Origin: Nitrospirota bacterium
GTDB taxonomy: Bacteria; Nitrospirota; 9FT-COMBO-42-15; HDB-SIOI813
DNA length: 35,482 bases
Direction: 5' to 3'
NCBI GenBank assembly: GCA_020851375.1
Contig: JADZCV010000037.1
Coordinates: forward strand, 1 to 35,482
Part shown: piece by piece, positions 9,134 through 14,477 of the stretch
Numbering within the stretch: position 1 is the stretch's first letter
How the letters are laid out: every line of letters starts with the position of its first letter
Notes under the pieces: generated by a model
What the model was told of the DNA's origin: nothing
What the model saw: only the letters and a program-made list of their open reading frames with translations
Database searches by the model: none
Translations under genes and position numbers: made by a program

Positions 9134-9733
9134 ATGTTTACAGGCATTATAGAAGAACTCGGTTCAGTAAAAGGTGTCAGAAGGCAGTCAGACGGAATGC
9201 GCCTGTCTGTAACGGCAACGGTTATCATGGATGGGATGCGGAAAGGTGAGAGCATTGCCGTAAACGGCGCATGCCTCACTGTAACAGAGTTCGATAGATA
9301 TTCATTCATAGCCGATGTCTCAGGCGAGACAGTAAAAAGGACAAATCTTGGAAAGCTTCGGACTGGCGACAAGGTTAATCTCGAGCGTCCGATGAAACTG
9401 TCAGACAGGCTTGGAGGCCATATGATATCAGGTCATGTTGATGGGACAGGCACCATAAGAGCTCTTGAAAAGAGGGGCGGGATGTCAATATTTACCTTTG
9501 AAGCGCCGTCCGAGATTCAGCGATACCTCATTGTCAAAGGTTCCGTGGCAATTGATGGCATAAGCCTCACAGTCAACGAGATTAAAGGAAACAGGTTTAC
9601 AGTAACGATCATTCCCCATACAGCAGAAATGACCACCCTCGGATTTAAAAATATCGGAGACGCCGTCAATTTAGAGGCAGACATGATAGGCAAATACGTG
9701 GAAAATTTCCTCAGAACTCGTATCTCATCGTAG
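9134..9733 (+). CDS. ribE: riboflavin synthase, alpha subunit
   Basis: Makes riboflavin from two molecules of 6,7-dimethyl-8-ribityllumazine. The 199-residue protein has the internal duplication of the family: the first barrel starts MFTGIIEELG with the active-site region NGACLTV, and the second has SGHVDGTG and DGISLTVNEI. The start MFTGIIE is the standard N-terminus. Shine-Dalgarno is weak; the repeat just upstream occupies the usual leader. The ribBA and ribH genes that commonly follow are absent here, and the last 23 bases overlap tail-to-tail with the minus-strand barrel gene. The protein itself looks complete. Confidence 0.96.
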   Translation: MFTGIIEELGSVKGVRRQSDGMRLSVTATVIMDGMRKGESIAVNGACLTVTEFDRYSFIADVSGETVKRTNLGKLRTGDKVNLERPMKLSDRLGGHMISGHVDGTGTIRALEKRGGMSIFTFEAPSEIQRYLIVKGSVAIDGISLTVNEIKGNRFTVTIIPHTAEMTTLGFKNIGDAVNLEADMIGKYVENFLRTRISS

Positions 9734-10949
9734 CGAACAGGTCGTCGTTTTTGTCGAGCTGGCCGAAGAATGTCCTTGAGTCTTTCCCTCCGAATATATT
9801 GATTCCTCCGGAGAACCATAGTGAGTCTGTGATGTTGTATCTGGCTTCAGGTATAACGAAGTAGTCTTCATCGTCAGGGCTGTAGAATGTAAACAGGCTT
9901 AGCCTGAGTGTGTTGTATTTGAGCATCTGTGTGAGCCTTAGTGTTACCAGTTGATGAAGTTTGTCAGACTTCGGGAATCCTGCAGGCAGGGAGTTTTCAT
10001 ATTGCCCATAGTCCTGCATATATTCTCCGTAGTATTGCACACCTGCTGTAAAATCTGACCAGATCTGTTTTGAATACCCCAGGATATATCTTGCAGAGGA
10101 GTTTGATATCGTGGGATCATCTCCATTCCTGTCATCCAGAGAGTCATAGTAGCCGCCTTCTATGCTCAGGACCCCGTTCCCCAATGCCCCCTGCATGCTG
10201 AATCCGTAGACAGCAAGCTGCGGATAAAAGAGTTCTGCCTCTGTCATGGAGGTTGGTCTCATCCCGGGTATTTTATAAAAGCCGCGGTATACATAGAGCG
10301 ATGTGTCGAAGCGTCCAAGCTGTCTGTAAAGTCTTAGTGCAATTTCTAAGTTTTCGATCTCTTCCCTCGGCGTATTGATGCCGGTGATGGTCATCGGGCT
10401 GTATAGAAAGAATCTCTTTGGATCAGGAAGCTGATAAGGTTCGAAGAAAGGTATGACTACCAGATCAGCCGATATGGCATCGGAATAGAGAGAGAGCTTC
10501 ACAGCATCAGAACCTGTTTTAAGATATTCAAGAGGCTGCCCGGAGAAGAGGGCTGAATAATTCTTTGGATATGTGTCGTTGATGAACAGCAGGTCACCTG
10601 CCCCCCATGTGATTATTTGCCTGCCGGCCCTCAGGTCATAATGACCGGACCTGTAATCCATATACGCCTCACGGATATCTACATGATCCTCATCTGCGAC
10701 AGAGTCATGGACAAGGTCAGCCTTCAGCGTAAATGCGGTGGATTCTGCAGTGCCTGTGATCTCGCCCCTTAATCGTTGTTCCCCTGAAAGATAGTCTCCC
10801 CCTTCATTGTTGTCAGGGGTTTCATTTCCTGTAATCCTTGCAGAGAGGCTGCCCTGTACAAAACCATGGAAGTTGATCTCCTGGGCACAGGCAGTAGCCG
10901 TTTTAATAGCAAAAATAAGAATTATGAAAATATAACTCATTGTCTTCAC
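9711..10949 (-). CDS. outer-membrane beta-barrel protein (DUF1302-like), exporter-associated
   Basis: About 412 residues. A signal peptide (hydrophobic about residues 5-20, likely cut after ACA in TACAQEI) leads to a chain of alternating amphipathic strands ending in YEF, the terminal Phe that marks outer-membrane barrels. The segment with RAGRQIITWGAGD followed by LFINDTYPK resembles the DUF1302 family found beside RND lipid or hydrophobe exporters. The start is GTG at 10949 with AGGAG nine to ten bases upstream; ATG 10940 would also give a signal peptide. It is the last gene of the minus-strand run after the MMPL exporter and the LolA-like protein, with a repeat between. The likely role, inferred from context, is the outer-membrane step of export. 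Its 3' end overlaps ribE by 23 bases. Confidence 0.72.
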   Translation of the reverse strand: MKTMSYIFIILIFAIKTATACAQEINFHGFVQGSLSARITGNETPDNNEGGDYLSGEQRLRGEITGTAESTAFTLKADLVHDSVADEDHVDIREAYMDYRSGHYDLRAGRQIITWGAGDLLFINDTYPKNYSALFSGQPLEYLKTGSDAVKLSLYSDAISADLVVIPFFEPYQLPDPKRFFLYSPMTITGINTPREEIENLEIALRLYRQLGRFDTSLYVYRGFYKIPGMRPTSMTEAELFYPQLAVYGFSMQGALGNGVLSIEGGYYDSLDDRNGDDPTISNSSARYILGYSKQIWSDFTAGVQYYGEYMQDYGQYENSLPAGFPKSDKLHQLVTLRLTQMLKYNTLRLSLFTFYSPDDEDYFVIPEARYNITDSLWFSGGINIFGGKDSRTFFGQLDKNDDLFATMRYEF

Positions 10950-10967
10950 CCGAAAATACTCCTAAGT

Positions 10968-11149
10968 ACCCGTCATTCCCACGGAACCTGTCCCCGCAGG
11001 ATTTAAGCGGGGAGTGGGAATCCAGGATCAAGCCTCGGTCTGGATTCCCGCTTACGCGGGAATGACGTTTTCATGAACCCTGGTGAGCCCTGAGCTGTGA
11101 GCTTGTCGAACAGTCGAAGGGCTCATGACGGTTCACCTGAAAACCCCCG
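10968..11149. repeat. composite palindromic repeat, copy C
   Basis: Third copy of the block seen at 1-350. The second hairpin, ATTCCC-N8-GGGAAT, is at 11044-11063. The first hairpin has arms ATTCCCAC (about 10975-10982) and GTGGGAAT (about 11014-11021), pushed apart by an extra segment that itself pairs TCCCCGC with GCGGGGA, so one palindrome sits in the loop of another. The third palindrome, TGAGCCCT/AGGGCTCA, is full length here (about 11084-11125). It fills the gap between the LolA-like and barrel genes. Confidence 0.88.
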
Positions 11150-11162
11150 TTAACACATCGTC

Positions 11163-11957
11163 TCACTTTATCCACTTCTCAGAAGGCTTCCTTAAATACC
11201 TCTCCGAAAACACATCATCACCAATACCGACATTGTAGGATACGTTTTCAAATACGACTTCTGTCTTATGTCCGCTCTTGATATTTTCCATGCTCCTCTT
11301 AGTCACTGTTGGAAAACCGCCGTTTATTTCAACCTTATCTGCGGTAAAAACTTTATACAACGAGCCCTGTACATCGTAATATTCATCCTTCAGGGGAAGG
11401 TAGGTCGCCTTGTCAACCCATGAAAGCTTCCTGGTATATTCTGCAGGATTCTTTGGAGTGCTCTCTATAACATGACACGGCTTTCCCTGAATAGTGTCTT
11501 CCCTCACATACTTATAGGTATCTGCCTCTGGGTCTCGGCCTGACACATCTTCATATGTGAAATCCGAGCCGACGAAGCTTGACCTGCTGTCCTTTGCAGC
11601 GATGCGGTTTACAAGATTAATGGCAGGTATGAATATCCACCTGTCATCATCCCTGCCTGGATATTTATAGACAATAAACGATGTCCCGCGAACATCAGCA
11701 GGATTGTGAAAATACATGAAATATTTCTGTTCTCCCCCTATTCCGTTTTTGCGCAGCATGGTCAGTTCTCTGAGTCTCTGCTGACCGGATTTGGACAACA
11801 GTGTCATCTTCACCCTTGCCTGCATGTCCTTCCCCTGTGCAAAAAATGCGTCCTGAGATTTCCTGATGATGTCAGCAGCATCCTCTGCCCTGAGCAAAGC
11901 CGGACTGACAGTAATAGAAAGCATAACCAGCAAAAACAATCCAAGATATTTCGTCAT
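11163..11957 (-). CDS. LolA-like outer-membrane lipoprotein-sorting protein
   Basis: A 264-residue periplasmic protein of the COG2834 type: signal peptide (about residues 1-24, ending LLRAED), then a beta-rich domain of the LolA/LolB fold. Typical features are the early helix ADIIRKSQDAFF, the segment LTMLRKNGIGGEQKYFMYF, KYPGRDDDRWIFIPAINLVNRI, SFVGSDFTYEDVSGRD and the late SWVDKATYLPLKDEYYD. Members encoded next to MMPL exporters are thought to carry a lipid or other hydrophobe across the periplasm. The start ATG 11957 has GGGAGGGG just upstream; the frame is open 12 bases further. It lies between the exporter and the barrel gene, and its leader is a pyrimidine/purine repeat tract. The cargo is unknown. 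Confidence 0.8.
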   Translation of the reverse strand: MTKYLGLFLLVMLSITVSPALLRAEDAADIIRKSQDAFFAQGKDMQARVKMTLLSKSGQQRLRELTMLRKNGIGGEQKYFMYFHNPADVRGTSFIVYKYPGRDDDRWIFIPAINLVNRIAAKDSRSSFVGSDFTYEDVSGRDPEADTYKYVREDTIQGKPCHVIESTPKNPAEYTRKLSWVDKATYLPLKDEYYDVQGSLYKVFTADKVEINGGFPTVTKRSMENIKSGHKTEVVFENVSYNVGIGDDVFSERYLRKPSEKWIK

Positions 11958-11960
11958 AAC

Positions 11961-12052
11961 CCCTCCCATTAACCTTCCACCTTCTCCCTTCTACCTTCTT
12001 CCCATTAACCTTCCACCTTCACACCTTCTACCTTCCTTCCTTCTCCCTTCTT
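11961..12052. repeat. CCTTCYN heptamer-like tract with a 20-bp direct repeat
   Basis: On the + strand the gap is almost pure pyrimidine, built of units such as CCTTCCA, CCTTCTC, CCTTCTA and CCTTCTT. A 20-base segment starting CCCATTAACCTTCC is repeated exactly at 11965-11984 and 12001-12020. Read on the minus (coding) strand it is purine-rich with many AAGG and GGAAGG motifs, and its downstream end supplies the Shine-Dalgarno of the LolA-like gene. Such tracts can slip and vary in length. Confidence 0.8.
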
Positions 12053-14335
12053 CTAAACCACCCACCTGCCAAACACCCGGATAATGGCAGGTATGAAAAG
12101 TATCGTCATAAGAGAACTGATAGCCATCATGCCGGCAATAAAAAGACCAACTGTTACATATGGGGTCAGGGGCGCAAAAATCATTACAGAAAATGCCGAG
12201 GCGAAGAGAATGGCATTCCTTATAATCCCCTTTCCGGGTCTTGCCGCTGTCCATAAAAGCGCCTTCTCTATATCCCTGTCTTCTTCGTATCTCTGCTGAA
12301 ACCTCCTGATGAAGTGGATGGCAAAATCCACTGCCATGCCTAATGACATGGCGGACAACACCGAAACAGGCATGTCAAAGTCCTTCCCGATGAATCCGAC
12401 GAAGCCGTATATGATTATGATTGTAAACAGCAGGGGGATGTAGCTTATCAACCCCCACCTGACTGACCTGAAATTAATCACCAGTATTATAAATACTGCA
12501 ATAAGGGCCAGGATGAATCCCTTCATCATGTCAAACAGGACCTCATCATTCCAGACCATGTTGAAGTATGATATACCGGCAGGTTTAAATGCTATGTCCA
12601 GATCCGGCCTTGACGACTTAAATTCTTCTATCTTGTTCAGTACATCCCGCATGGCAACGGCATCCCATGTCTTTAGCTGCAGAAATATGTTTGCCTTGTC
12701 ATAATCAGCGGTTACTACATTTTCGAGGTCCCGTGGTTTTGCAGACATGCCGAACAGAAACAGATATTGTGCTATTTCATCAGATGATTGAGGAAGGGTG
12801 TCATATTCCGGGGAGTTGCCGTGCAGAACCTTGTTTACCCTCCTGACTATGTCTGCTATGGAAGTCGTCTTGCCAACGACAGGAAGCCCTTCCAGTTCTT
12901 TCTGAAGTTTCTCGATTGCAGCGAGGTTTGCAGGCTCCTTCATGGCACCAGGTATCGATGATTCTGCTACTATGTACGCAGAGGCTGTGCCCGCAAGCAG
13001 GCTGTTCATTACACTGTCTGCCTGCCTAATGTCGCTACCTTTCTTAAACCATGAGACCATGTTGTTGTTTACCCGTATCCGCATTAACCCAGTTATGGCT
13101 ATTGCAATCATTACGATGCCGACAGTAATGACAATCCAGGACCTCCGGTAACCTGTTTCCCCCAGCCGTCTAAGCCATTTGGAGCCGCTCCCGGACTCTT
13201 CATTTTCCCGCTCTGCCATGGCCATAAGTTTCCTGTCACTGGTAAGCATCATCAGGGCCGGTATAAAGCTGAAGCTCATCAGTCTTATGACAATTGTGCC
13301 GAATGCCACAAATACCCCGAATACCTTCACAGGTATGATATGCATTATGACAAGGACGCCAAAACCGGCGGCTGTTGCGAGTGCAGTATATCTGACTGAT
13401 GGTCCAACGACGGCAAGTGTTTCCAGAATAGCCTGCTTTTTATTTTTGACCTCCCTGAGCCTGAAATAGAATTCATTGAAAATATGAACGCTGTCTGTAG
13501 ATATGGCCATGAGAAATACGGGTATCATGGAACTCATGATGTGCACTGGAAACCCAAGTCCAATGAGGAGTCCCATGCTCCATATAATGCTGAAAAATGC
13601 GACAGACATCATGGCTGCAACAAGCATGATATTGCGGAACATGATATAGAGTGCGATCATCATGATGAATCCGGCTATCGGGGAGAAGATACCCATTTGC
13701 ATGAACATATTATGGCCAAAGGTGTCCCGCGCCACCGGATCACCTGCTACGTAATAGCGCTCGGCCCCCTTTTCACCGCTTACAATATTTCTGATACTGT
13801 CGGCAATGACTTTGGCATCCGCCCCCTCTTCGAGAGGGACATATATGGCAGTTGTTGTCCTGTCGTCAGAGACGAGCCGGCCGATAAGCATTGGATTGTC
13901 ATATATCTCATCCCGGAGTCTTGTCATCTCGTCTTCAGATTGAGGCACGTGATCCATTACAGGTCTTACTATCAACTGTCCATTCTCAGACAGGACATTA
14001 TCTGCGGTTGTAAGACTCATGACATCAGGTATAACAACGCCTTTAATCCGCATAATAGCGTCTGTAAATCGTGCTACCCGTTCGAGCGTTGCCGTGTTGA
14101 ACAGGCCTGCCGGGTTTTCAATTCCAAGTACGATTGTGTCCCTGTGAAGTGCGAAGAGAGATTCCATCTGATCGTTGTAGACCCGGACAGGTGATGTCTC
14201 AGGCAGCATGTTCCTGGGATCTGTATCAATCAATATCTTTGGAAACTGGGAAAAGAAGATTAGTGTCAGAATTATTACAAAGGCAACAGTTGATCCGGGT
14301 CTTTCAACTGCAAGTTCCGTCAGCTTAGAAGGCAT
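12053..14335 (-). CDS. MMPL/RND-family exporter, hydrophobe or lipid type
   Basis: About 760 residues with the two-fold RND repeat: TM1 near residues 14-30, a periplasmic domain, TM2-6 (about 218-365), a second TM (about 400-418), a second periplasmic domain, and TM8-12 (about 605-755). The polar TM4 positions are TDSVHIFNE (Asp 281) and its repeat MAVDFAIHFIRR (Asp 670), the proton-relay region of MMPL proteins. It lacks the docking features of drug pumps and has no adaptor gene beside it, more like HpnN-type lipid exporters. The start ATG 14335 has GGGAG eight bases upstream; TTG 14353 lies before that site and is rejected. First gene of the exporter, LolA-like, barrel operon. Substrate unknown. 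Confidence 0.88.
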   Translation of the reverse strand: MPSKLTELAVERPGSTVAFVIILTLIFFSQFPKILIDTDPRNMLPETSPVRVYNDQMESLFALHRDTIVLGIENPAGLFNTATLERVARFTDAIMRIKGVVIPDVMSLTTADNVLSENGQLIVRPVMDHVPQSEDEMTRLRDEIYDNPMLIGRLVSDDRTTTAIYVPLEEGADAKVIADSIRNIVSGEKGAERYYVAGDPVARDTFGHNMFMQMGIFSPIAGFIMMIALYIMFRNIMLVAAMMSVAFFSIIWSMGLLIGLGFPVHIMSSMIPVFLMAISTDSVHIFNEFYFRLREVKNKKQAILETLAVVGPSVRYTALATAAGFGVLVIMHIIPVKVFGVFVAFGTIVIRLMSFSFIPALMMLTSDRKLMAMAERENEESGSGSKWLRRLGETGYRRSWIVITVGIVMIAIAITGLMRIRVNNNMVSWFKKGSDIRQADSVMNSLLAGTASAYIVAESSIPGAMKEPANLAAIEKLQKELEGLPVVGKTTSIADIVRRVNKVLHGNSPEYDTLPQSSDEIAQYLFLFGMSAKPRDLENVVTADYDKANIFLQLKTWDAVAMRDVLNKIEEFKSSRPDLDIAFKPAGISYFNMVWNDEVLFDMMKGFILALIAVFIILVINFRSVRWGLISYIPLLFTIIIIYGFVGFIGKDFDMPVSVLSAMSLGMAVDFAIHFIRRFQQRYEEDRDIEKALLWTAARPGKGIIRNAILFASAFSVMIFAPLTPYVTVGLFIAGMMAISSLMTILFIPAIIRVFGRWVV

Positions 14336-14354
14336 CAGCAATTCTCCCTGCAAA

Positions 14355-14387
14355 ATGAATATTCATTGTTTCATATTATCGAAACAA
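14355..14387. promoter_or_regulatory. operator-like palindromes between promoter and exporter gene
   Basis: TTGTTTC (14366-14372), eight bases, GAAACAA (14381-14387) is a perfect inverted repeat. ATGAATATTCAT (14355-14366) is a perfect 12-bp palindrome touching it. Both lie just downstream of the predicted start near 14390, a usual place for a repressor site. No regulator gene is adjacent. Confidence 0.5.
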
Positions 14388-14396
14388 GATATTACT

Positions 14397-14425
14397 AACA
14401 TAATGATTATTACATGCTTTGTCAA
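14397..14425 (-). promoter_or_regulatory. promoter of the MMPL exporter operon
   Basis: On the minus strand, -35 TTGACA (14425-14420) is perfect and -10 TATGTT (14402-14397) matches four of six, with a 17-base spacer. The predicted start is near 14390, leaving a leader of about 55 bases that contains the palindromes at 14355-14387. Confidence 0.6.
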
Positions 14426-14477
14426 GCAAATTTTAATGATAATTTTATTGTCGGGATGATGATTACAGATGAGAAGA

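Follow-up and report, generated by a model that had tools for sequence, protein, structure and literature searches.

A conserved set of an MMPL/RND pump, a LolA-like carrier and an outer-membrane barrel with a recurring sulfur-gene neighbourhood as a candidate route for a hydrophobe across the bacterial envelope

The three-gene locus and the encoded proteins

The window analyzed here, i.e., the whole stretch of 35,482 nucleotides, lies on contig C37 of a Nitrospirota MAG (2.5 Mb, 98% complete), the nearest named relatives of which are Nitrospirae groundwater MAGs. The original prediction placed an exporter, a periplasmic carrier and an outer-membrane barrel, which together could serve as an export route for a lipid or other hydrophobe, at positions 9711-14335, and three consecutive minus-strand ORFs are indeed present there (Table 1). 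Its neighbours in the window are a PstS-like gene and a porin gene on one side and riboflavin-synthesis genes on the other; the earlier statement that no adaptor or biosynthetic gene is adjacent thus holds for the window.

Table 1. Features of the triad locus in the window
Feature	Positions	Strand	Remarks
Outer-membrane beta-barrel, 412 aa, signal peptide	9711..10949	-	AlgE/porin-like fold, DUF1302-related
REP-like palindrome copy, carrier-barrel spacer	11042..11065	.	outside the ancestral unit
LolA_like periplasmic protein (PF17131), 268 aa	11163..11969	-	profile match; ATG 11957 is the likelier start
MMPL/RND inner-membrane pump, 760 aa from ATG 14335	12053..14335	-	ORF extends to TTG 14353
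Spacer upstream of the pump	14354..14477	.	ArsR-type regulator at the equivalent site in same-family genomes

The triad genes of the window are separated by gaps of 83 nt (pump-carrier) and 213 nt (carrier-barrel). The pump-carrier spacer (positions 11970-12052) is purine-rich and repetitive (AGAAGGTGGAAGG...). The REP-like palindrome of the other spacer, ATTCCCGCNNNNGCGGGAATCC, is also present at positions 73-96 and 273-296 of the window and is dispersed genome-wide in about 176 copies (90 forward and 86 reverse matches with no more than one mismatch, and none for the reversed control pattern).

According to the comparison with Pfam, the pump belongs to the MMPL family PF03176 (133.7 bits, above the cut-off of 20.5). 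The top RND model in NCBIfam was that of the HAE3 transporters (TIGR00921), with a score below the cut-off (195.5 against 351.9 bits), and the scores with the equivalog models of HpnN (88.1 against 751.85 bits) and BstA (23.7 against 1400 bits) were far below theirs. The sequence relatives of the pump in the PDB are Dispatched, MmpL3/4, NPC1-type and HpnN proteins. 3D modeling using AlphaFold2 gave an RND-type topology bearing two periplasmic domains, and the nearest structures were those of MmpL4, MmpL5, MmpL3 and NPC1 (TM about 0.7). The start of the protein is probably the ATG, since orthologs share it (MxSKLT), and not the TTG of the longest ORF. In the pump, two Asp/His pairs are conserved (Asp287/His290 and Asp676/His680, counting from the TTG start); we take them to be the RND proton-relay pairs, and they would fit RND proton coupling.

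As for the carrier, its match with PF17131 (LolA_like) was strong (211.5 bits against a cut-off of 30, E = 1e-62). DUF1329 was also detected above its cut-off (33.6 against 23.1 bits), but PF17131 is a much better fit. The start given in Table 1 as the likelier one was chosen because it is aligned with the ortholog starts. The solved relatives of the protein (9tp6, 3bk5 and 4z48) take its functional name no further than 'lipoprotein-sorting', and the Pfam text for PF17131 reads 'outer membrane lipoprotein-sorting protein', which could be taken to mean that the carrier transports a lipoprotein. We consider lipoprotein sorting extremely improbable: the carrier has no NCBIfam match, hence none with a curated LolA model, its partner is an RND pump and not LolCDE, and the name of PF17131 is an annotation rather than a tested function.

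The barrel remained slightly below the cut-off of DUF1302 (PF06980; 21.5 against 23.2 bits), and the matches with Wzi and Alginate_exp were also sub-threshold. Among its relatives, an ortholog barrel (locus L088) exceeds the same cut-off with 24.9 bits, and the barrel of a paralogous triad on contig C10 of the window's genome scores 54.9. The AlphaFold2 model is a beta-barrel (pLDDT 85), for which AlgE and porins were the top PDB matches (TM about 0.5).

Gene order and neighbourhoods of the orthologous triads

In a scan of one genome per species (84,980 species), 467 relatives of the exporter were confirmed. The neighbourhood counts refer to the best 80 of these 467 loci, with flanks of up to 10 kb. 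These 80 loci come from about 12-13 phyla, and the lineages among them include Nitrospirota, Methylomirabilota, several 'Deltaproteobacteria' lineages, Zixibacteria, Latescibacterota, Elusimicrobiota, Omnitrophota, Betaproteobacteria, Rokubacteria, Acidobacteriota, Bdellovibrionota and Ignavibacteriota. All 80 loci originate from MAGs, so that odd placements, e.g., a single Actinomycetes bin, may be due to misbinning.

A lack of co-occurrence of the three families in other genomes had been named as the refutation of the triad. At least 7 kb of downstream sequence was present in 51 of the 80 named loci, and both the LolA-like carrier and the barrel were found in 50 of these 51; therefore, the three families do co-occur. 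A barrel ortholog with at least 41% identity was identified in 18 of the 61 genomes searched, and in these genomes the exporter ortholog is located upstream of the barrel on the same contig and strand, except for G003, in which the barrel is at the contig edge. The barrel orthologs show 39-82% identity to the window barrel. Since orthologs of each gene keep the same order in other genomes, the triad cannot be regarded as a chance arrangement. The gaps between the ortholog genes clustered at -4 nt (pump-carrier) and at -13 or -4 nt (carrier-barrel), so the triad genes overlap in many species; they mostly overlap or abut, unlike the spaced genes of the window.

Clustering of all genes around the triads exposed a set of recurring partners, namely, ArsR, sulfide:quinone oxidoreductase (SQR), TusC/DsrF-like, TusB/DsrH-like, DsrE, DsrE2-like, rhodanese, YeeE/YedE and TauE proteins. 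Among the best 80 of the 467 loci, same-strand ArsR regulators were present in 60 and SQR in 50. At least one SQR/Tus/DsrE gene was found in 64 of the 80 (in 42 of the 48 in which 4 kb are present on both sides), and 75 contained ArsR and/or SQR/Tus/DsrE genes. The SQR/Tus/DsrE link was observed in 40/48 Nitrospirota-type loci and in 24/32 other loci, and it is therefore no peculiarity of Nitrospirota. In four 'Deltaproteobacteria' loci (L100, L101, L151 and L158), the SQR gene is located between the pump and the barrel, and in about ten loci rhodanese and/or YeeE are encoded between the pump and the carrier. The neighbouring SQRs align over their full length with the solved SQRs of Aquifex and Acidithiobacillus (3hyv, 3t2y), and the catalytic residues Cys159 and Cys341 were each found in 48 of the 50 proteins; four of the matches were weaker, and their assignment to SQR relies on this cysteine test. 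A small SAM-dependent methyltransferase (e.g., L125 6095-6772) is encoded in 27 of the 80 neighbourhoods, 11 times between the carrier and the barrel, and its substrate might give a hint at the cargo of the triad.

Twenty distant triads composed of these three families and taken from the same phylum (pump identity roughly 22-31%), scanned alike, served as controls. ArsR was found in none of the 20, and neither SQR/Tus/DsrE nor the other listed partners were found in any of them. The difference between 64/80 (SQR/Tus/DsrE) and 60/80 (ArsR) versus 0/20 has a Fisher p-value of 1.4e-11, uncorrected for shared ancestry. The contrast is also valid within single genomes, as G019 and G056 hold both kinds of triads. 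In a quick maximum-likelihood tree, the window pump was placed inside the clade of sulfur-linked triads and apart from the controls (support 96); it grouped with its own family, and this family is not part of the 70-row core clade, where sulfur genes reach their highest frequency. Its identity to the clade members is 55-75%, and to the C10 paralog about 31%.

The C10 triad (L016 6277-11787) has none of the sulfur partners nearby. Its genes are tightly packed in the order LolA_like, DUF1302, MMPL. The MMPL protein (L016 6277-9180) contains a long stretch of low complexity that is enriched in Trp, Lys, Gly and Glu, e.g., PWWAKWQKGGWGKNWKGGGDW, and a similar end was found in a nearby ABC-type ATPase (L016 17458-18861) unrelated to it. 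The third LolA_like gene of the genome (L017 7939-8760) stands alone; its neighbours encode a sensor protein and a penicillin-binding protein, and it has no pump or barrel gene beside it.

As for the regulators, in many orthologous loci the gene immediately upstream of the pump encodes ArsR, and the cysteine in the HAxxC motif of this regulator is nearly invariant (31/35). The ArsR proteins of the clusters score as generic metalloregulators; with the BigR model, scores of 46.5 and 60.9 were obtained, below the cut-off of 155. The position, the cysteine and the generic scores of these regulators could indicate ArsR-controlled efflux of a toxicant (metal, metalloid or organic), in which case the sulfur genes would supply thiols and not the cargo. 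Such efflux appears very unlikely: genes for arsenic or metal resistance are not among the recurring partners in the 80 neighbourhoods, and ArsR-type regulators sensing sulfane sulfur are well known (PMC12423496), though the cysteines of the cluster ArsRs are, as judged by eye, located elsewhere than in the SqrR, BigR and SoxR sensors (PMC12423496). ArsR-rhodanese fusion regulators were found near the triad in seven loci (L110, L131, L155, L160, L161, L174 and L175) and are candidates for sulfane-sulfur sensors of an unusual build.

The triad in its own genome and genus

In the window, no ArsR or SQR/Tus/DsrE gene adjoins the triad, and no ArsR or DsrE remnant is detectable, including in the spacer upstream of the pump. 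The genome as a whole has no SQR of the neighbour-gene family, no YeeE and no DsrA above the cut-off. A sulfur module located elsewhere in this genome was considered and rejected, since only DsrE-type genes unlinked to the triad were found, namely, a DsrE/DsrF/DsrE2 set on contig C10 and a weak DsrE match on C27.

The gene order in G009, which belongs to the same family, is FMN reductase, porin, PstS-like protein, ArsR and MMPL, i.e., the order of the window plus ArsR. ArsR is also located directly upstream of the pump in three other genomes of the family (G004, G006 and G008), and DsrE directly downstream of the barrel in two (G005 and G008). Because the genus-mate G002 also has no ArsR, the simplest explanation is that the window's genus lost this gene. 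The PstS-like gene and the porin gene next to the triad were rejected as parts of the system; the pair is also present in G009, but in G002 FMN reductase is directly upstream of the pump.

Several irregularities were observed among the related loci. In G002, a fragmentary second barrel copy with an in-frame stop follows the intact one (L090 5717-6040). In G022, a complete genome of the Nitrospirota phylum, the cluster looks decayed (L096 6403-9636) and consists of ArsR, TusC, TusB and then truncated SQR, MMPL and barrel genes. Three barrel ORFs (L087 8126-9661, L088 11248-12702 and L096 8816-9379) begin with a tandem SKRLLMLS-like repeat, probably reflecting a DNA repeat that precedes the actual start of the barrel.

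A sulfur role of the triad in the window's genome would thus be derived from orthology and not from the local genome, and two observations speak against the sulfur reading: the triad persists although SQR, YeeE, DsrA and the pump-side ArsR are missing, and the window's branch lies outside the core clade. With the regulator gone and these sulfur enzymes missing, the triad of this genus may function independently of the sulfur module, possibly in a constitutive manner or with a related hydrophobe as its cargo.

Possible cargo, direction of transport and related systems

The explanation favoured here, in which we place middling confidence, is that the triad would move a hydrophobe linked to sulfide/sulfane-sulfur metabolism across the envelope, with protons as the driving force, rather than export sterols; sulfur chemistry is favoured over sterols because of the recurring sulfur partners. 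The MMPL/RND pump would extract this hydrophobe from the inner membrane, the LolA-fold carrier would take it across the periplasm, and the AlgE/porin-like barrel would let it through or into the outer membrane. The original prediction of one transport route gained support from the gene order kept over about 12-13 phyla, the overlapping or abutting genes, the fitting folds and the conserved Asp/His pairs, while transport as such, its outward direction, the hand-over among three proteins and the cargo are what we infer from these data.

The cargo itself is not identified by the gene neighbourhood. Our best guess would be a hydrophobic sulfur species, polysulfane or S8, or else a sulfur-modified or sulfide-stress-induced lipid, formed around SQR and the DsrE-type sulfur relay. 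The function of the clade would most likely be the export of a hydrophobic product of sulfide/sulfane-sulfur chemistry or of a protectant against it, S8/polysulfane being the most interesting candidate. That the clade is a dedicated trans-envelope carrier of zero-valent sulfur (S8/polysulfane) in Gram-negative sulfide oxidisers, outward or back in, is a narrower proposal that we regard as doubtful. A covalent persulfide relay through the triad was rejected as unlikely: ortholog alignments contain no conserved cysteine in the pump or the barrel, and Cys165 of the carrier, found in 69 of 84 sequences, is not specific to the sulfur-linked carriers, being also present in the paralog without sulfur neighbours. 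The cargo is therefore probably held non-covalently.

The main rival is an envelope lipid under sulfide-stress control. The triad would in this case be a general exporter of envelope lipids or hydrophobes like HpnN and BstABC, sharing only regulation with its sulfur neighbours, e.g., in outer-membrane remodelling under sulfide stress. Structural and sequence relatives of the pump move lipids and sterols (PMC10942540), the triad survives where SQR and YeeE are missing, and the same genome has a sulfur-free paralogous triad. Lipid- or sterol-synthesis genes, as judged by eye, do not recur in the 80 neighbourhoods, except for a sterol-desaturase-like gene in four loci, which would favour a lipid, and sulfur genes recur over many phyla, even inside the triad. 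Given also the scores with the HpnN and BstA models, sterol or hopanoid export was rejected, and the lipid- or sterol-type cargo suggested originally was not borne out; a general lipid exporter is possible, though clearly less probable than the sulfur-linked route.

The direction of this sulfur-linked route could also be the reverse, with the barrel and the carrier delivering extracellular elemental sulfur, or some other hydrophobe, to the sulfur enzymes inside and the pump controlling the inner-membrane step. MMPL-type RND pumps work outward by proton antiport as a rule, and the ArsR regulation more resembles a stress or efflux response, so that uptake seems unlikely to us. It would be consistent with the presence of YeeE in several ortholog operons, as YeeE/YedE and Tus/DsrE act on inbound sulfur (PMC13293266), and with the induction of an MMPL-LolA protein and a porin on n-C28 alkane, for which uptake was proposed (PMC6304351).

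Among the known systems, AmeABCD of Castellaniella defragrans, for which efflux of apolar monoterpenes was proposed (PMC6394551), appears to be the closest to the triad. Its parts are of comparable kinds, with an HAE3-type RND pump, a periplasmic protein of the LolA superfamily and a DUF1302 outer-membrane protein encoded together (PMC6394551). In contrast to the triad, whose carrier belongs to PF17131, AmeB is a DUF1329 protein; AmeABCD has a second periplasmic protein, AmeC, whereas the window contains no further gene between or directly beside the triad genes; and its context is terpene metabolism rather than ArsR, SQR and Tus/DsrE as in the triad clade. The sterol transporters BstABC of Methylococcus capsulatus also include an inner-membrane MMPL pump, a periplasmic part and an outer-membrane-associated part (PMC10942540), but BstB and BstC are from other families, and the triad has no sterol genes nearby. 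The hopanoid transporter HpnN and MmpL3/4/5 share the RND fold with the triad pump (TM about 0.7); unlike the triad, HpnN has no dedicated carrier and barrel. In Thalassolituus oleivorans, TOL_3187/TOL_3188 are composed of MMPL, a LolA-like domain and a porin and respond to n-C28 alkane (PMC6304351), but MMPL and LolA are combined in one protein there, and the context is that of alkanes, with no sulfur genes reported (PMC6304351).

On the side of sulfur metabolism, the DsrEFH type II/YTD cluster of cable bacteria and sulfate reducers resembles the triad loci in combining YeeE/YedE with DsrE-type sulfurtransferases and is also found in Nitrospirota (PMC13293266), but the set of RND, LolA and barrel proteins is not mentioned in that paper (PMC13293266), and the window has no YeeE. 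Neither RND nor MMPL proteins come up in recent work on DsrEFH/YTD clusters, on cable bacteria or on sulfur disproportionation. A literature search mostly outside the subscription journals turned up no account of such a triad together with SQR or DsrE, nor of this clade or its link to sulfur, which is weak evidence of absence. The parts of the triad are known families and its general architecture has precedents; the sulfur neighbourhood is the new point.

How insoluble elemental sulfur crosses the bacterial envelope is an open question. Chlorobaculum tepidum is reported to make and use extracellular S0 globules by a mechanism that is unknown, vesicles having been proposed as one component (PMC12285230). 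A conserved set of pump, carrier and barrel with a physical link to the genes of SQR and sulfur transfer offers a concrete and testable candidate. If the zero-valent-sulfur reading is true, it would be a protein route that puts insoluble sulfur outside the cell or fetches it, over about a dozen phyla. If the cargo is something else, the link with sulfur genes would still be the first lead to the cargo of a widespread RND/LolA/DUF1302-like clade.
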